From contig NZ_CP045915.1 in NCBI RefSeq assembly GCF_009650095.1, forward strand, positions 1,302,001 through 1,366,000: 64,000 nucleotides of DNA, read 5' to 3'. Within the stretch, counting starts at the first letter, position 1, and the number at the start of each line of letters is the position of its first letter. The position numbers and the translations under genes are program-made. The DNA comes from Gracilibacillus salitolerans (GTDB lineage: Bacteria; Bacillota; Bacilli; Bacillales; Amphibacillaceae). The notes beneath the pieces were generated by a model, which saw nothing but the letters and a program-made list of their open reading frames with translations, made no database searches and was not told the DNA's origin. Shown here one piece after another: positions 7,438 to 60,911 of this stretch.

Positions 7438-10400
7438 ATGAAAGAAATTACTTTCTGGCAAATTGGTTCAACTGAAGGTAAATCTAATCAGTTAGTAGAT
7501 AATTATAAAGATCCAACTTTATTTGCAGACGTGGTATGGAATGTAGAAGATGCACACCATACCAATCAAAAATGGCCATTATTCCATCCAAGTGAAGCAG
7601 ACCCGGAATTTGGATATAAAAGAAGACCTTATACAATAAAGTTTAACTTAGACCACCAACCTCAAGGTTCTTATGTATTACGGATGCATTACTTAGTGAT
7701 AGCGCCACGATTAGCATTTGTCGAAATGAAGATAAATGGTACAAAAGGCAATGCCTATCTTCACCCTAATCCTTCACAATCTGGAGAAATAAATCTTCAT
7801 TCGGGTTTGCACACAACCATTTATTCGGATGGTGTCCTTGAAGTGGTCATCCCTGATGAGCAATTGAAACAAGGGGAGAATGTACTGGAGTTAGTTAGTC
7901 GAGATGGTGGAGATTATATAAGGGTAGATAATGTTGAAAAAATAAAGCGTCTAGACCGAATGGCTAATGGAGCAGGGTTTATCTATCAATCTATTTCACT
8001 ATTAAAAAAGGAAGTACAACCAGAATCAAGTGTAAAAAAACTAGCTATCGAGCCGACTGTACTTTATAAAAGAAATAAAAATGGCGAATTAGTGGAGCGT
8101 TGTTATGTCTATTTAGAAAGCAATCAAGCATTACATGCCACGTCTCTATCATTGGAGATCCAAGTGGCAGATGAAATGCAAATCTTAACTATTCCAATTC
8201 CGACTATATCGTTCGGTCACATCACACATACTTTTGATTTAATTGATGGAGAGGGTGTTGTGACGTATCGTATTCTTGGAAAGATTAATGGAGAAGATTT
8301 CGAGCAATCAGGTACTATCCAACGAAAGAGAAAATGGAAAGTCTATATTACTCCGCATTCGCATACGGATATTGGGTATACACATCGCCAATGGGAGGTA
8401 GGAGAGCGGTTATGTCGTAATATTGATACAGCTATTCAGTTTTTAGAATCAGGAAACGCAGGCGATACATTTTCATATCATTTGGATGCATCTTGGGTTT
8501 TAGAAGCATATATCGAGTTGAGAAGTGAACAACAAGTCGAAAAATTATTTCAATACGTGCAACAAGGCAAAATTGGTATTCCGCATTCCTATGGTGACTT
8601 GCTCACTCAATACGCCTCTTTAGAAGATTTGATACGGAACGGTGAATTTTCAGAATCTCTACTAAGACCAAGAGGTTTACGCTCAAAATTCACATCGATT
8701 GTTGATGTGCCTTCTATGACAGGATCATTACCAAAAGTATTGCAAGATTCTGGTGTGAAATTTTTAGTTCATGCTAATAATCAGGATCGAGGGCCATTTC
8801 GTTTAAATGGAGGTTTGCATAAAATATCCCCCTATTATTGGGAGGGAAATCACGGTGGAAAGGTACTTGTTTGGTTGGCTAAGATGTATTGTGAGTTGAG
8901 AAAAGTATGTGGCAGTCCGCCAGTAATAAGTAGTGCTGAACGAGGTTTGGAGCTTTGGTTAGATGAGTATGAAACAGAGTCTTACGCACCAGATGCTGTT
9001 TTATTATATGGACAGGAAGCTGATAATACTGACATGGATCCACAGCCAGTGGACTTTACCAAACAATGGAATGAAATGTATGAGTATCCGAAACTTATTC
9101 CAAGTAATGTAGAAGATTTCTTCGAATATGTAGAAGGCCAATTTTCTGATCATTTTCAGACTGTAAAAGGTGATGGTGGAGGATATTGGGAAGATGGCGT
9201 GGGATCAACTATAGAACCGGTTATTACGATTCGTAAAGCGCAATCGATGCTACCAGCTGCAGAAAAGCTAGAGTCCTTGGCAGCCATTCATAATCCAAAT
9301 TGGAAATATCCTAATAATCATTTTGATCAAGCATGGCATACTAATTTGCAATTTGTAGAGCATACTTGGGGAGCGTTTTTAAGTGGTACAGATCCAGATG
9401 CTTTATTACAACACGATCAATGGGCGATTAAACATCATTTTGCACGTGATGGTTTACAAAAAGCTAAGCGTTTACTCGACACAGCAGCCGTTAGACATAG
9501 CTTGAATTGGAACAATAATGGAAGGGAAGTCGTTGTTTATAATGCGCATAGTTGGAGGGTAAGTGGACCTGTTCAAGTGGAAATAGCCAAAAATGAAAAA
9601 GTATATAATGCAGTTACAGGAGAAGAAATGCAAACGAGAAAGGTAAAGGAGACAACGACTCAGGCTATTGTTGAGATATGGATTAATAACCTACCAGGCT
9701 TAAGCTATCAAAGAATGGTGTTAAAAAATGTAAGTAATCAAGCAGAAAATGATCGATCCATTGATCAACATAATCAGAAAGTGGTTGTTTTGGAAAATGA
9801 TTTTTATCGTATGGAATTAGTCACAGAAAGAGCATGCCTTGTGAGCCTACTAGATAAAGAGAATGAAACAGAATTGGTCGATAAGTCAGATGAATTTGGC
9901 TTTGGTCAGTTTGTCTACGCGAAAGGTGGAGAAGGCACTCGGTTAGTCGGAAATTCCAATGATTTAGCTGACGGAGATCCTGAGCTATTAACCGATTTTG
10001 AGTTATTTGATGTAAAGGTAGAATCCTTTGATTACGGACAATCGGTTCAACTTGTTGGAAAAGTTACTCATGGAGAGTTGAAAGTAGCGTGGACATTATG
10101 GGATCAACTAAAACAAATCGATGTCCAATATAGTTTAGATAAAGAAGAGAAATTAGAAAAAGAAGCGATTTACATTGCTTTTCCTACTAATTTGAAGCAA
10201 GCAACGATTAAATCTGACTCACAAATAGGTTGGGTGAATTGGGATAAGGATCAACTGCCAGGAGCATGTAAGGAATGGCTTCCTGTGCAATCTACGATGT
10301 TGTTAGCTAATGAGGAAGCAAGCATAGCTATTGCGACACCAGATATTCCACTATTTACTATTGGCAATGTTGTTAAAGGTAGATGGCCTAAGGAACTTGA

Positions 10401-10902
10401 TCTAACGGGAAATAGAGTGTTCTCGTATGTTCTCAATAATTATTGGCATACAAACTATAAGGCATCACAATCAGGTCAAATCGAGATTCGTTATTCTATT
10501 ACTAGTGCAAACCAGATTAAGCATGATCAAGCATATCGTTTTGGTTGGCAGCAGAGAAGACCAATTTATGGACATCGGATAAGCTTCCAGGATTTCCGAA
10601 CCGTTCACCCACCATATCAAAGTGAGGCTGGTGGTCAATTAGCTCAATTAGATACAGATCAAGTATCGCTAGTCACATTAAAAAAAGCAAAATGGGAAGT
10701 AAGTAGCTGGATCATTCGATTACAAGAAATTGCAGGTCAAACAAGCACGGCAACTTTTGAAGTGCCTAAACAAAAAATTCAGTTTGCAAAAGTAACAGAT
10801 TTATTAGAAAAAGAAACAGAGAAACTGGAAGTGAATGCTAATGGATCCTTAACCGTTCATATGGAACCATGGGAAGTGAAAACAATCCTGATCACTTTGT
10901 AA
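7438..10902 (+). CDS. GH38-type glycosidase with N-terminal beta domain (1154 aa)
   Basis: A large divergent member of the GH38 superfamily. Residues 1-170 are a beta-sandwich resembling the carbohydrate-binding domain of rhamnogalacturonan-lyase-like proteins (KINGTKGNAYLHPNPS...VIPDEQLKQGENVLELV). The catalytic region starts near residue 300 with PHSHTDIGYTHRQW (His309, Asp311) and the nucleophile lies in SIVDVPSMTG (Asp423). The usual NQFHD motif is replaced by FVEHTWGAFLSGTD. The C-terminal half is beta rich. There is no signal peptide. The start has GGAGG seven bases upstream. It sits 155 bases after another GH38 and before a GH32-like gene. The departures from the mannosidase consensus suggest a substrate other than simple alpha-mannosides. 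Superfamily call sure, specificity open. Confidence 0.87.
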   Translation: MKEITFWQIGSTEGKSNQLVDNYKDPTLFADVVWNVEDAHHTNQKWPLFHPSEADPEFGYKRRPYTIKFNLDHQPQGSYVLRMHYLVIAPRLAFVEMKINGTKGNAYLHPNPSQSGEINLHSGLHTTIYSDGVLEVVIPDEQLKQGENVLELVSRDGGDYIRVDNVEKIKRLDRMANGAGFIYQSISLLKKEVQPESSVKKLAIEPTVLYKRNKNGELVERCYVYLESNQALHATSLSLEIQVADEMQILTIPIPTISFGHITHTFDLIDGEGVVTYRILGKINGEDFEQSGTIQRKRKWKVYITPHSHTDIGYTHRQWEVGERLCRNIDTAIQFLESGNAGDTFSYHLDASWVLEAYIELRSEQQVEKLFQYVQQGKIGIPHSYGDLLTQYASLEDLIRNGEFSESLLRPRGLRSKFTSIVDVPSMTGSLPKVLQDSGVKFLVHANNQDRGPFRLNGGLHKISPYYWEGNHGGKVLVWLAKMYCELRKVCGSPPVISSAERGLELWLDEYETESYAPDAVLLYGQEADNTDMDPQPVDFTKQWNEMYEYPKLIPSNVEDFFEYVEGQFSDHFQTVKGDGGGYWEDGVGSTIEPVITIRKAQSMLPAAEKLESLAAIHNPNWKYPNNHFDQAWHTNLQFVEHTWGAFLSGTDPDALLQHDQWAIKHHFARDGLQKAKRLLDTAAVRHSLNWNNNGREVVVYNAHSWRVSGPVQVEIAKNEKVYNAVTGEEMQTRKVKETTTQAIVEIWINNLPGLSYQRMVLKNVSNQAENDRSIDQHNQKVVVLENDFYRMELVTERACLVSLLDKENETELVDKSDEFGFGQFVYAKGGEGTRLVGNSNDLADGDPELLTDFELFDVKVESFDYGQSVQLVGKVTHGELKVAWTLWDQLKQIDVQYSLDKEEKLEKEAIYIAFPTNLKQATIKSDSQIGWVNWDKDQLPGACKEWLPVQSTMLLANEEASIAIATPDIPLFTIGNVVKGRWPKELDLTGNRVFSYVLNNYWHTNYKASQSGQIEIRYSITSANQIKHDQAYRFGWQQRRPIYGHRISFQDFRTVHPPYQSEAGGQLAQLDTDQVSLVTLKKAKWEVSSWIIRLQEIAGQTSTATFEVPKQKIQFAKVTDLLEKETEKLEVNANGSLTVHMEPWEVKTILITL

Positions 10903-56615: not shown

Positions 56616-57581
56616 ATGAAAGCATTAGAGAGAGTTAGTGGTTTTGTAGGGAGTACGTTTGCAATTTGGGTTGTTCTATTTGCGATCTTATCATTTCTTA
56701 TACCTTCAGGATTCACATGGTTGGCAGCCTATATCACACCATTATTAGGTATCATTATGTTTGGTATGGGACTTACGTTATCTGCAAGTGATTTTAAAGA
56801 AGCTTTTAAACGTCCGAAAGAGGTTGCGATTGGAGTAGCTGGTCAGTTCTTGATCATGCCATTGCTTGCCTTTGCGTTAGTAACGCTATTACCAGTTTCC
56901 AAAGAGGTGGCAGTCGGTGTTATCTTAGTAGGTTGTTGCCCTGGTGGTACTTCATCGAACGTTATGACGTACTTATCCAAGGGGGATACGGCATTATCGG
57001 TTTCTATTACTACGGTTTCTACGATTCTAGCACCATTTTTGACACCAGCACTTATTTTTCTTTTTGCTAGTCAGTGGTTAGAGGTATCTGCAGGATCCTT
57101 ATTCGTATCGATTGTACAAATTGTATTAGTGCCGATCGTGTTAGGCTTAATCGTTAAAGCGTTATTGAAGGACAAAGTGGAAGCGGGAGTAAAGGCGATT
57201 CCGTTAGTATCGGTAATTGGTATCGTAGCAATTGTTGCTGCAGTAGTAAGTGTTAACCATGAACAAATTGCGAAGACTGGTTTACTCATTTTCTTAATTG
57301 TTGTACTTCATAACGCGCTAGGCTATCTAGTTGGTTATGGGCTAGGAAAAGTAACGAAAATGGGTTCGAAGCAACAAAAAGCCGTTTCTATCGAAGTAGG
57401 CATGCAAAACTCTGGACTTGGTGCCACACTAGCCGCTGCACACTTTAATCCACTAGCAGCTGTACCAAGTGCGATTTTTAGTGTCTGGCATAATATTTCA
57501 GGACCGGTTATAGCAACTATTTTCAGGAAGCAGCAGGAGAAAGAAGATAAAAATGATGTAGAGAAGAGTCAAAGTGCATAA
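56616..57581 (+). CDS. Bile acid:sodium symporter (BASS) family transporter
   Basis: A 321-residue membrane protein with about ten hydrophobic segments, of the BASS/YocS type. The conserved regions ITPLLGIIMFGMGLTLSASD, LVGCCPGGTSSNVMTYLSKG and VEVGMQNSGLG-like (SIEVGMQNSGLGATLAAAH) mark the sodium- and substrate-binding crossover helices. AGAGGGGG precedes the ATG. Prokaryotic relatives import organic acids such as pantoate or keto acids with sodium; the substrate here is not known. Single gene with its own terminator-like hairpin downstream. Confidence 0.92.
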   Translation: MKALERVSGFVGSTFAIWVVLFAILSFLIPSGFTWLAAYITPLLGIIMFGMGLTLSASDFKEAFKRPKEVAIGVAGQFLIMPLLAFALVTLLPVSKEVAVGVILVGCCPGGTSSNVMTYLSKGDTALSVSITTVSTILAPFLTPALIFLFASQWLEVSAGSLFVSIVQIVLVPIVLGLIVKALLKDKVEAGVKAIPLVSVIGIVAIVAAVVSVNHEQIAKTGLLIFLIVVLHNALGYLVGYGLGKVTKMGSKQQKAVSIEVGMQNSGLGATLAAAHFNPLAAVPSAIFSVWHNISGPVIATIFRKQQEKEDKNDVEKSQSA

Positions 57582-57590
57582 TGAGAGGTA

Positions 57591-57644
57591 AGGGTCGGAT
57601 TTTTCAAATGGACTTTTGTTCATAAGAGGGAGCCGGCCCTTTTC
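57591..57644 (+). terminator. Terminator-like hairpin after the BASS gene
   Basis: AGGGTCGG pairs with CCGGCCCT (one G-T pair) across a 34-base loop and is followed by TTTTC. Long loop lowers confidence. Confidence 0.5.
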
Positions 57645-57673
57645 ATTGTTAGAAAGTATAAAATTTTGGTATT

Positions 57674-57822
57674 TGTCTAGCTCCGAGCACTCAGAAACTA
57701 GGCGACTTCACGAATCGCCCTACGATAAGTCATCATCGGTTCGCAAAGCTCACCGTGATTCCTTTATCTCAGTTGTTTCTGAAGTCGCTACGTTTCTAAA
57801 CGGGCGCTCTGCGCTTTTCTTA
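57674..57822. repeat. Dispersed intergenic repeat family 1, short copy
   Basis: A 149-base copy of the element at 15970-16288, lacking most of the internal part. It shares the TGTCTAGC left end, the GGCGACTTCACGAATCGCCC block, CCTTTATCTCAGTTGT and the right end GGGCGCT..GCGCTTTTCTTA. GC content is above its neighbours and a frame across it has no protein-like features. Confidence 0.8.
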
Positions 57823-57908
57823 GTTTTACTTTAAGAACATTTAGACTGTAGGAGCTCTTATTTAGAAGGGAATAGATCACCTAATCTTGAAAAAGAGGAG
57901 AGCTCTTA

Positions 57909-58408
57909 TTGCAAACGTTATTTCGATATAACTGGATGGTCAGAGAAGAATGGATCGTTGGTGTCAAGAGTTAAGCCAAGAAGAACTTCTTCGCAATTAA
58001 ACGGGTGGAGTAGGTAGTATAGTGCATACACTGTTCCATATAGTAGTTGTAGAATGGAGTTGGTTACGTCTCTTACAAGAAAAAACAGACTTTGAAGGAA
58101 GTTTTGTTGATTATAAGAGCTTGAAACAGGTTCGAAAATTGGACGTTGAATTTAAAAAGGAAGTGGAGAACTTTGTGAACAACTGAGCTGGGAGTATGGA
58201 AAATCAATTATTTTACGATACGCTACCAAATGGAAGAATGGTAACGGATACCTGGGGTGAAGTGATACGACATGTTATTGCTCACGAAATTCACCATATA
58301 GGGCAATTATCAATTTGGGCAAGAGAAATAGGGAAAAACCTGTGTCAGCAAACCTTATTGGACGTGGGCTTTCCCCTCATTCGACTAATTAATCAGAGAA
58401 TATTTTAG
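57909..58408 (+). pseudogene. Decayed DinB-family gene
   Basis: Joined across breaks, the frames read as a DinB/YfiT-like four-helix protein: QTLFRYNWMVREEW, then WCQELSQEELLRN, TGGVGSIVHTLFHIVVVEW, and finally TWGEVIRHVIAHEIHHIGQL with the metal histidines. There is a frameshift near 57955 and two in-frame stops, TAA at 57998-58000 and TGA at 58184-58186. A GAGGAG site precedes the old TTG start at 57909. The gene is therefore inactive. An intact but different DinB protein lies at 61357. Confidence 0.8.
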
Positions 58409-58474
58409 TTTGTATTTCTCGTTATTAATTTGAATACTGGTGAATTGTTATAGGACGGATCGAAAGAATTACTG

Positions 58475-58480
58475 TATAAT
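58475..58480 (+). promoter_or_regulatory. -10 element for the leader-MFS transcript
   Basis: A consensus TATAAT with a poor -35. It places the transcript start about ten bases before the leader ribosome binding site (AGGAGG, 58498-58503). Confidence 0.6.
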
Positions 58481-58511
58481 TAATAATAGAATAAGGAAGG
58501 AGGAATTTCAT

Positions 58512-58568
58512 ATGTCTAAAACTTTAGCTGTTAACTCCACAAAACTAGCAGGGGTGAGAGCAAGTTAA
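58512..58568 (+). CDS. 18-codon leader peptide of the MFS exporter
   Basis: A short frame encodes MSKTLAVNSTKLAGVRAS and stops at TAA 58566-58568. An excellent AGGAGG (58498-58503) eight bases before the ATG, a TATAAT box just upstream, and the structured RNA behind it leading to an MFS gene 78 bases later indicate a genuine regulatory peptide of the kind found before erm, cat and mef resistance genes. Its codons 12-15 (CTA GCA GGG GTG) contain the RNA segment that can pair with the downstream anti-Shine-Dalgarno sequence. The peptide itself matches no leader that I recognise. Confidence 0.7.
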   Translation: MSKTLAVNSTKLAGVRAS

Positions 58569-58646
58569 AATTTAATAATCTAGCGTTAGCATGCTTTACT
58601 CCTGCTTTAACAATCCGTAATTGATTTTATTAGCAGGAGGTACACA
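58534..58646 (+). promoter_or_regulatory. Ribosome-mediated attenuator hiding the MFS Shine-Dalgarno sequence
   Basis: Four segments can pair alternately: ACTCC (58534-58538) with GGGGT (58551-58555); AGCAGGGGT (58547-58555) with ACTCCTGCT (58598-58606), nine pairs with one G-U; and CTCCTGCT (58599-58606) with AGCAGGAG (58632-58639), eight perfect pairs. The last stem buries the AGGAGG of the MFS gene (58635-58640). A ribosome held early on the leader would free the second segment, form the middle stem and expose the site. The sequence shows the pairing; the mechanism is inferred from known erm/cat systems. Confidence 0.68.
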
Positions 58647-59831
58647 ATGAAGAAAAATACTTTAGCGGAACATAACATTAAGTATTTATTTTGGTCTCAA
58701 ATATTTGGAAGTATCCTATTTATTACACCAGTTTTGACTTTGTTTTATTTTTCGCGTGGACTAGATGAAACGCTTATCCTATTGATCATGGTTTTTTTCA
58801 GTTTAGGAGTCCTTATAGGTGAAGTGCCTACAGGAATATTTGCAGACCGATTTGGAGCTAAGATGTCTTTCTTAATCGGCTCGTTACTAGGAATTGGTAG
58901 TCATGCATTATTATTATGGGCTTACGAACCTTGGGTGTTCTTTTTAAGTAGCTTATTAACTGGATTTGCAGCTACTTTTTTTAGTGGTTCAGATGAAGCT
59001 CTAATATATGAGTCATTAATCTTATCTAGCGAAGAGAACAAAATGGATAAGGCAATGGGACAAATTGGTTCAGCAAAATTCTTAGTCACGATCATTGTAG
59101 TAATAATAGGAGCGATTCTAGCAAAAGACCTATCTGATGGACAATTTAAACTGTTAATTGTTTTAAGTTTATTTTTTATGTCCATTCAATTTGCTTTATT
59201 ATTGTTTATTAAAAATCCGCCTAATCAAGGCACATATAACAATGATATTAGAACACAACTTAAAGAAGGATTTTATGCCATAAAGAAACATCCTCAAGTT
59301 TTATGGATGTTTATGAATATTACTCTTGTATTTATACCTGCGACTGCAATTTTTGAAAAATTTGACCAAAAACTATTGGTAGATGCAGGTCTTCCTGTTT
59401 ACTTGATAGGCATTGTTTATGCAATTGCTGCTTTAATAGGGTTTACAGCGTCTCGTACAATTGGTTGGATGACAGAAAGAATAAACCGTGTACACCTTTT
59501 GTTTATTACTGGCTTACTGGCTGTGCTAAGTCTTATAGGGGTTGCAATGTTCACTTCCTATTTGGGGACATTATTGGGAATTCTATTAATCCTCAAACTT
59601 GTAAGTGCTATTAGATATCCTGTTTACTCGCAACTATCCAATGAAATCATTCCTTCTAATGTTAGGGCGACTACTATTTCCCTCTTATCGATATTAGATT
59701 CAGGATTTGATATTATTATTTTCCTAACTGTGAGTGGTATGGCGATAACTGGTTTTTCAACGATGTTTCTTGTTTGTGCAGGTATTGCTTTAATCGGCAC
59801 ATTCATTCCAGTTGTACCCAGAAAAGCGTAA
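58647..59831 (+). CDS. MFS transporter, probable drug exporter
   Basis: A 394-residue major-facilitator protein with twelve predicted membrane spans. The motif-A loop GEVPTGIFADRFGAK follows the second span, and the central charged loop around residues 185-210 separates the two halves. It ends in PVVPRKA. AGGAGG precedes the ATG but can be sequestered by the upstream attenuator. Motif A and the leader-type control suggest antibiotic or toxic-compound export, possibly of a ribosome-targeting drug; the compound cannot be named. The nearby fosB supports a small resistance region. A strong terminator follows. Confidence 0.88.
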   Translation: MKKNTLAEHNIKYLFWSQIFGSILFITPVLTLFYFSRGLDETLILLIMVFFSLGVLIGEVPTGIFADRFGAKMSFLIGSLLGIGSHALLLWAYEPWVFFLSSLLTGFAATFFSGSDEALIYESLILSSEENKMDKAMGQIGSAKFLVTIIVVIIGAILAKDLSDGQFKLLIVLSLFFMSIQFALLLFIKNPPNQGTYNNDIRTQLKEGFYAIKKHPQVLWMFMNITLVFIPATAIFEKFDQKLLVDAGLPVYLIGIVYAIAALIGFTASRTIGWMTERINRVHLLFITGLLAVLSLIGVAMFTSYLGTLLGILLILKLVSAIRYPVYSQLSNEIIPSNVRATTISLLSILDSGFDIIIFLTVSGMAITGFSTMFLVCAGIALIGTFIPVVPRKA

Positions 59832-59847
59832 ATATTAATACCATTGT

Positions 59848-59880
59848 AGATCATACATGCTAATATGTATGATCTTTTTT
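59848..59880 (+). terminator. Rho-independent terminator after the MFS gene
   Basis: Perfect 11-bp stem AGATCATACAT / ATGTATGATCT with a six-base loop, then at least six T. It separates the MFS gene from convergent fosB. Confidence 0.92.
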
Positions 59881-59897
59881 TAAAATCTTTTAAAGGT

Positions 59898-60320
59898 TTA
59901 ATCAAAAAACTCCATATGTGTTTTTTCTTGTTTGTAGTAATCCAATCTATCTTGTAAAGTACCTGTATGAAACTCGAACTTATGACCATCAGGATCAGTA
60001 AAATAAATAGATTTCTTATCTCTTTTATCCCTAGGACGACCTGACAAAATGTTAACATTCAATTCCTTTAGTCTTTTGTACATTCTATCAAAATCTTCTT
60101 CATCGATTGAAAAAGCAATATGTGTGTACGATTCATTTATTTCATTGCGTTGTATATCTTTCTCTACATTAAGCGCAAGCCACATACCATTCAAATCAAA
60201 ATAAGCAGTGTTCCTTCCTTTAACTAATAACTTAGCGTCAAATACTTTTTTGTAAAAGTCAATAGAATTTTCTAAGTCCGAAACAGAAAACAAAAAATGA
60301 TTAAGCCCTTTTATCGACAC
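59898..60320 (-). CDS. fosB: Metallothiol transferase FosB (fosfomycin resistance)
   Basis: A 140-residue vicinal-oxygen-chelate protein that opens the fosfomycin epoxide by adding bacillithiol or cysteine. The N-terminal [20 protein letters not shown] supplies the first metal His (His8), SYTHIAFSI the second, and [20 protein letters not shown] the metal Glu and substrate residues; [17 protein letters not shown] is also conserved. The sequence follows Bacillus FosB closely from end to end. GTG at 60318-60320 has GAGGTG six bases upstream and gives the same N-terminus as known FosB; an upstream GTG at 60329 overlaps the ribosome binding site. Single gene, convergent with the MFS gene. Confidence 0.94.
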
Positions 60321-60494
60321 GTTTATCACCTCACGTATATTATAGTAATGATATGACTATGTGCAAATTTTTGATCTCGAACGTAGCGCTAATCGATCAC
60401 ATTATCAAGCATAATGATGTTAATCATGACAAACGCATAAATCTGCTCCAGTTTCATATAAATGAATTAATCATAACTGACTGGGGGAATATTG

Positions 60495-60911
60495 ATGTCA
60501 AAGGCCATAGAGATTGAAGAAGAGGTTTCTGAACTTACGGAAGAAATGTTAAAGGAATACTATGATTTAAACAATCAGAAAAAAGAATTAGAGAAAGAAA
60601 TGAATCAGATTAAAAAGCAAATCCACAACTATCTGGATGTAACCTTTGGGAAAGAACAAAAAGGTGAAGTGCAAAAAGGGAAATATAAGGCACAGCGTAT
60701 TATTCGTTCTTCCGTTAATTACGATGAAGAAAAGACAGTACAAAAATTAGAAGAATTAAATTTAGAAGACTTTATCCTACAAGTAAAACAGCCAGACACT
60801 GAAAAACTAGAAGCAGCAATGAAGATAGATATAGTCAAAGAAGAAGAGTTCAAGGATTGTAAAATGAATAAACTGTCTCAAGCCATTACGGTTAAGGAAT
60901 TAAGGATATAG
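60495..60911 (+). CDS. Hypothetical coiled-coil protein (138 aa)
   Basis: A highly charged, soluble protein. Residues 10-50 form a likely coiled coil (EEVSELTEEMLKEYYDLN and KKELEKEMNQIKKQI), followed by a small alpha/beta part with KYKAQRIIRSSVNYDEEKTV and LEELNLEDFILQVKQPDTEK. The overall layout (helical hairpin, then a short strand-rich domain) recalls phage-type single-strand-annealing accessory or Gp157-like proteins, but I cannot assign a family. GGGGGA precedes the ATG at 60495. It stands alone with a terminator behind it. Confidence 0.65.
   Translation: MSKAIEIEEEVSELTEEMLKEYYDLNNQKKELEKEMNQIKKQIHNYLDVTFGKEQKGEVQKGKYKAQRIIRSSVNYDEEKTVQKLEELNLEDFILQVKQPDTEKLEAAMKIDIVKEEEFKDCKMNKLSQAITVKELRI

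Follow-up and report, generated by a model that had tools for sequence, protein, structure and literature searches.

A 64,000-nucleotide stretch of the Gracilibacillus salitolerans genome (contig NZ_CP045915.1, positions 1,302,001 to 1,366,000; hereafter the window) contains an MFS transporter gene preceded by a short open reading frame, raising the question of whether translation of this frame controls the transporter and, if so, by what means. The initial annotation of the locus proposed a translational attenuator of the ermC type, with an RNA segment that can pair either inside the leader or over the Shine-Dalgarno (SD) sequence of the MFS gene. In a comparison of homologous loci we found, at the level of sequence, the leader, a layout of three pairing segments (A, B and C), its conservation, A:B covariation and association with the MFS gene. 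The leader in 64 of 79 loci, A:B covariation and B:C conservation support the proposal, and we consider it very probable that the MFS exporter is under the control of an ermC/cat-like translational attenuator, with arrest by an inducer and export as its presumed functional steps.

The leader, its ribosome binding site and the gap of 78 nt between its stop codon and the MFS start codon at 58647 were confirmed base by base as first described (Table 1). No good -35 box was recognised, and a promoter scan found no strong promoter at the -10 site of the leader. Among the 64 homologous leaders described below, a perfect TATAAT was present 18-60 nt before the start in 30, compared with 308 of 3200 shuffles (9.6%); 49 leaders had it with at most one mismatch, 32 of these at -34 to -38. 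The pattern scan for intrinsic terminators returned 3 such sites in 57800-60300, with 1.2 expected from shuffles, and none between leader and MFS gene. No Rfam family matched 57500-60500 at threshold, two weak snoRNA hits at 57680-57740 being below their gathering scores. Among the neighbours, a FosM/FosB-type fosfomycin thiol transferase gene (59898-60329, minus strand; NCBIfam FosM 278.3 against a cut-off of 255) adjoins the MFS gene. A 70-aa ORF at 58196-58408 (plus strand) matched the DinB family only in a C-terminal portion of the profile (positions 111-148 of 165) and is possibly a gene remnant just 5′ of the leader promoter.

Table 1. Features of the leader and MFS transporter locus, in window coordinates
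Feature	Position	Strand	Remarks
Probable -10 box, TATAAT	58475..58480	+	37 nt 5′ of leader ATG
Leader Shine-Dalgarno, AAGGAGG	58497..58503	+	Read directly
Leader ORF, MSKTLAVNSTKLAGVRAS plus stop	58512..58568	+	18 codons; ATG 58512-58514, stop 58566-58568
Proposed segment 1, ACTCC	58534..58538	+	Partner GGGGT at 58551-58555; both sequences present
Segment A (ermC segment 2), AGCAGGGGTGAG	58547..58558	+	Within leader; pairs with B
Segment B (ermC segment 3), TTTACTCCTGCT	58595..58606	+	Anti-Shine-Dalgarno; A or C as partner
Segment C (ermC segment 4), AGCAGGAGG	58632..58640	+	Includes MFS Shine-Dalgarno; B partner over 58632-58639
MFS transporter, 394 aa	58647..59831	+	Pfam MFS_1, E 4.3e-26
Intrinsic-terminator-like hairpin 3′ of MFS gene	59848..59875	+	Pattern scan

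The two alternative pairings of B, nine pairs in the leader and eight over the MFS SD, also held when checked base by base. Read directly, ACTCCTGCT (58598-58606) forms nine pairs, one of them G-U, with AGCAGGGGT (58547-58555), and eight Watson-Crick pairs with AGCAGGAG (58632-58639). Allowing G-U lengthens A:B to 12 pairs (58547-58558 with 58595-58606). In ermC terms, the predicted 2:3 and 3:4 pairings are mutually exclusive, and segment 4 holds the SD of the gene. Overall, the fold of 58470-58670 was no stabler than that of shuffled sequences (z -0.88; 46 of 200 shuffles at least as stable). We scored the layout with a script that requires an SD-led ORF containing A, then B, and C at the SD of the gene. 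The window scored 35, a value reached by none of 770 dinucleotide shuffles of homologous upstream regions. In a survey of 185 real genes with an SD, drawn from the window and 45 loci (MFS genes included), four non-target genes scored at least 20 and three at least 30, the best reaching 36. Within the window, this script also gave a score of 34 to the gene at 7438-10902 (plus strand), where the A/B/C layout accompanies a short SD-led ORF, probably by chance. The window alone thus offers moderate evidence against chance; what appears decisive is the clear signal of conservation and covariation in homologues.

We collected 79 loci with an MFS homologue, and searched them for cases in which the MFS gene is kept without the leader or the pairing. 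The leader occurred at the equivalent place in 64 of the 79, under 18 family labels, with A:B covarying and B:C conserved. Of these leaders, 55 were found by script and nine by eye (L064, L074, L075 and L077-L082); the latter have a weaker or equal SD or a shifted register, and the script itself demanded an SD. A 56th script hit, at L032, was removed as a poor match. A layout score of at least 30 was obtained for 41 of 77 loci (L017 and L018, with long spacing, are left out of this count) compared with 2 of 770 dinucleotide shuffles, a comparison that ignores the kinship of these related sequences and, like the other shuffle counts given here, overstates significance. The 15 leaderless loci comprise 12 in one MFS clade (100/100 support) together with L032, L036 and L050, and a tree of 66 of the 79 loci needs four changes of leader state. 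Rows dropped from the set were L010, in which the MFS match covers residues 88-394, L011 and L012, which duplicate the records of the window and of L001, and L030, identical to L007; the locus set does not extend to the regions upstream of the gene in G244, G331 and G500.

Several individual loci deserve mention. About 300 nt separate the leader from the MFS gene in L017 and L018, yet A:B still matches at 16 positions there and B:C at 9; additional sequence between the leader and B is apparently tolerated. In L010 (Pseudalkalibacillus salsuginis) the MFS match begins at residue 88 and no leader was seen in the preceding stretch, so that this is probably a truncated MFS copy without the switch. 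L032 (G347) has an MFS copy without a leader, and its SD region contains TCCCCA/TGGGGA repeats able to pair.

Covariation was assessed in a MAFFT alignment (A1) of 40 of the 64 leader loci, made with no use of structure, the A:B structure being taken from row L034. In A:B, 76.8% of cells were paired, compared with 69.7 +/- 1.0 in shuffles (0 of 500 as high) and 42-57% when the segments were slid against each other. Double-changed cells numbered 46, compared with 27.9 +/- 3.8, and the covariation score was 0.264, compared with 0.179 +/- 0.013; neither value was reached in 500 shuffles. In this alignment no excess was seen in the number of pairs with a double change (8 compared with 8.0) or of pair types (28 compared with 28.7). 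Covariation of A:B is therefore supported by three of five measures. For B:C, 76.9% of cells were paired, compared with 42-63% when slid, double-changed cells numbered 15 (11.1 +/- 2.6 in shuffles) and 28 of 500 shuffles reached the covariation score. The B:C pairing is thus conserved in these sequences but hardly covaries, as would be expected because C must stay a Shine-Dalgarno. Of the covariation among segments named as a check in the initial annotation, the A:B part was recovered, whereas for B:C conservation took its place.

Partners were also swapped between loci, using one representative for each of 13 clusters and 5000 swaps. The outer A:B pairs scored better with their own partners than with swapped ones (13 of 5000 swaps reached the own score), and pairs 12-15 of A:B did so more weakly (130 of 5000). 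Own partners were no better than swapped ones in the nearly invariant A:B core (1483 of 5000) or in the outer B:C pairs (570 of 5000); in the B:C core 34 of 5000 reached the own score. The register of the element is also largely constant: the core GG of A follows the leader start by 39 nt in 31 of the 43 loci aligned. These 43 come from the 52 loci with a score of at least 20, after dropping L041, L053, L057, L058, L061, L070, L071, L073 and L076, which the fixed register did not fit; for L043 and L026 the register was adjusted manually to agree with sister loci.

A covariance model (R1) was built from the 40-locus alignment and used to scan 394 genomes of the order. It matched 44 genomes, once each, and 43 of the matches were directly 5′ of the MFS gene. 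Fourteen matches lay outside the building set, 13 of them at an MFS gene. The fourteenth, in G406, scored 41 bits; there a leader-like ORF, MQKDFILILLLQGK, precedes a different MFS-like ORF, and the match was judged by eye to be probably false. Of the 65 genomes with the MFS gene, 22 had no R1 match; these correspond to 12 leaderless loci, eight leader-bearing ones missed by the model (G161, G174, G218, G250, G278, G379, G479 and G481) and two upstream regions outside the set. An exact A-B pattern, tried as a finder of the element at other genes, proved too strict (2 of 394 genomes).

The leader peptide itself appears to be constrained up to about codon 9. For codons 2-9, pN/pS was 0.46-0.62, depending on the limit set on pair distance (the pairs are not independent), and it was 0.96 at codon 10 and 0.99 at codon 11. 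Single-codon values were 0.92 at codon 6, 0.77 at codon 7, 0.74 at codon 9 and 0.67 at codon 12, so the signal of purifying selection is a partial one. Lys3 is present in 57 of 64 leaders and Ser9 in 35, encoded by three different codons; residues 6 and 7 are variable, and the C-terminal frame shows no conservation. Compared with L034, L016 has one extra base between codon 5 and the AAACC that follows codon 9; its residues through Ser9 fit the pattern (MQKRLSIFS), and the downstream frame is lost. In L073-L075 and L077-L081, A is read in another frame, giving RRE, RRD or GRD instead of GGV. These frames, together with pN/pS, suggest that what matters is the first part of the peptide and A as RNA, and not the C-terminal peptide. 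No run of a single amino acid, as in amino-acid attenuators, was seen in the listed leaders.

To predict how a ribosome on the leader would affect the MFS SD, we folded 52 loci while shifting a 32-nt mask, standing for the ribosome, along the leader (in L008, L026, L043 and L053 the six bases taken as target were not those of the SD core). The SD was predicted to be most open with codons 3-8 in the P site in 48 of the 52 loci, with codon 1 in three and codon 9 in one, and to be closed, with few exceptions, from about codon 9. In 50 of 52 loci an early ribosome gave a predicted opening more than ten times as large as a late ribosome did; for the window the values were 0.059 and 5e-5. The fold with a ribosome footprint, also named as a check at the outset, thus came out as the proposal would have it, an early stall favouring an open SD and a late ribosome closing it. 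In absolute terms the predicted opening was low, with a median by codon of no more than about 0.02, suggesting that the ON state probably depends on A:B having formed first, as the RNA is transcribed.

From these predictions the following mechanism can be proposed. The mRNA would begin just 5′ of the strong-SD leader, as the -10 box suggests. Ribosomes translating the leader to its end would cover A, leaving B to pair with C and the MFS SD hidden (OFF). Given the size of the ribosome footprint, an A core at 39 nt lies just beyond the front edge when codon 8 is in the P site. With an early arrest, at about codons 4-8 in the P site, the front edge of the ribosome would stop just short of the A core, A:B would pair and the MFS SD would be free (ON). 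Purifying selection up to about codon 9 suggests that the arrest is probably dependent on the nascent peptide, most likely acting together with a ribosome-targeting antibiotic that would also be the substrate of the MFS protein.

A fourth segment, proposed at first to complete the ermC layout, found less support. The ACTCC and GGGGT sequences are present, but the hairpin they would form gave no signal beyond a synonymous-codon control and is not established: its mean z was -0.99 against letter shuffles (n=57, 72% negative) and -0.18 against synonymous-codon randomisation (n=64; cluster mean z -0.03, 17 of 32 negative). This hairpin may exist; it is not needed for the switch, because a translating ribosome can keep A from B.

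A different account of the same switch is that it senses leader translation in general, through poor initiation, slow elongation or amino-acid shortage, with no drug-specific peptide arrest. The prediction that an early stall at any of codons 3-8 favours an open SD fits this account, as does the variability of residues 6 and 7; however, a pN/pS of about 0.5 over codons 2-9 and the conserved Lys3 and Ser9 point to a peptide signal, and with no single-amino-acid run in the leaders we regard general sensing as rather unlikely. It is very improbable that control is exerted on transcription, with B:C acting as a terminator instead of an SD-masking stem: such attenuation is documented for vmlR, bmrCD and mef/mel (in a portion of PMC5418344), but in the window no U-run follows C and the space between leader and MFS gene lacks a terminator-like site. 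Still less probable is a functional small protein with incidental pairings, which the frequency of the ORF (64 of 79 loci) might suggest, as codons 10 and 11 evolve neutrally, the C-terminal frame is shifted in L016, A is read otherwise in L073-L075 and L077-L081, and the RNA segments covary. Chance complementarity between SD-like purine and anti-SD pyrimidine tracts, for which the unexceptional window fold and the three non-target genes scoring at least 30 could be cited, is scarcely credible given the conserved and covarying layout and the specificity of the model across 18 family labels.

Translational attenuation, the reading we prefer, can be compared with known systems. The middle segment of ermC pairs with a leader segment or with the SD of the resistance gene; the present locus likewise has an SD-led short leader and a B segment with these two choices of partner, and arrest is predicted to free the SD. 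Unlike ermC, the gene is for an MFS protein and not a 23S methyltransferase, segment 1 is not established and this is not an erm locus; the window leader also lacks an IFVI-type motif. In trp-type attenuators segment 2 is covered by a ribosome that has reached the leader stop, which forces 3:4 pairing, as predicted here, but the present element has no run of a control amino acid and no terminator, and its 3:4 pairing would hide an SD.

As outlined in passages of PMC5418344, ribosome arrest in the SD-led short leader of ermC frees the SD of the resistance gene. Translational attenuation of an exporter gene is listed for fexA and cmlA (PMC5418344, Table 1), to which the present gene is probably similar in this respect; these are chloramphenicol exporters, whereas the window protein falls far below the Cmx/CmrA cut-off, a distinction based on protein score. 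The macrolide-efflux system mef/mel is also a leader-controlled MFS exporter of Gram-positive bacteria, but its attenuation is described as transcriptional in parts of PMC4335068 and PMC5418344, and the window has no terminator-like site. Chromosomal resistance genes of Gram-positive bacteria under an upstream ORF, the role predicted here, include bmrCD, vmlR and cplR. According to sections of PMC10201436 and PMC9226507, these are ABC-type genes under transcription attenuation (for vmlR also translation attenuation), and the upstream ORFs of cplR, vmlR, vmlR2 and lsaA have 3-4 codons; in contrast, the window has an MFS gene and a leader of 18 codons.

The MFS protein offers few clues to its substrate. 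Its gene shares 94% identity with a Gracilibacillus orientalis gene. None of the NCBIfam drug MFS families MdtH, HP1165, TetA(P) and Cmx was matched above cut-off (best 38.1 bits against 469), and Cmx/CmrA, the only phenicol-exporter family touched, scored 18.7 bits against a cut-off of 400. Weak sub-threshold matches recurred across 23 MFS members (HP1165 in 23, TetA(P) in 22, Tet(40) in 19). A single-sequence search of solved structures gave no match for the protein, and the six sequences matched in a profile search (E <= 0.1) were organic-cation transporters, aligned over about 59 residues. In recent open-licence PMC literature, searched also with six leader-peptide strings, no paper on the leader or the exporter was found, and the word MFS is absent from the main texts of PMC11109978 and PMC10219788. 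The element is probably a translational attenuator not yet described in that literature, widely conserved and with an unfamiliar leader, in a class in which attenuated exporters (cmlA, fexA) are already known.

A class-level search extended the comparison beyond the order. MFS homologues at E <= 1e-60 were present in 22 of 348 genomes and yielded 20 further loci, of which 19 are covered here (L156 is left out). L137 (G744), from another order and with 60% MFS identity, has a leader of the same kind, MQKNFTLLLNQQVGVENF, with A/B/C and a raw layout score of 49.5. Six loci of another order with 39-44% MFS identity (L151, L140, L157, L142, L148 and L141) have a different leader with [KNI][NI]PV, for example MKIPVAAL and MTVKNPVSEAAGK. 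Among them, L151 has a strong A/B/C layout (56.5; 0 of 100 shuffles) and a predicted change of the SD from open to closed between codons 5 and 6. Layouts were weaker in L140, L157 and L142 (reached by 2, 3 and 2 of 100 shuffles, respectively), and the best segments of L140 exclude the nearest SD. In L148 the layout was no better than chance (29 of 100 shuffles), and the script found none in L141 or in L150, which has another leader-like ORF. No such leader was seen by eye in the other 11 loci (L139, L143-L147, L149 and L152-L155).

These observations tentatively suggest, as a possibility somewhat short of an even chance, a new class of drug-sensing arrest peptides, approximately M-[QSL]-K-[TNI]-[LF]-x-x-[FLN]-S, usually placed 39 nt before an anti-anti-Shine-Dalgarno in many families of one order and in at least one genome of another, and acting through a three-segment switch on a chromosomal exporter. 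The [KNI][NI]PV relatives would have changed the sensor and kept the control, and the switch would manage without segment 1 because the translating ribosome itself does the job of that segment. Covariance model R1 locates the element in new genomes, and the 64 naturally diversified leader peptides are a set for studying context-specific arrest. An exporter tied to ribosome inhibition would also provide a lead to its own substrate, namely whatever stalls ribosomes early in the leader.
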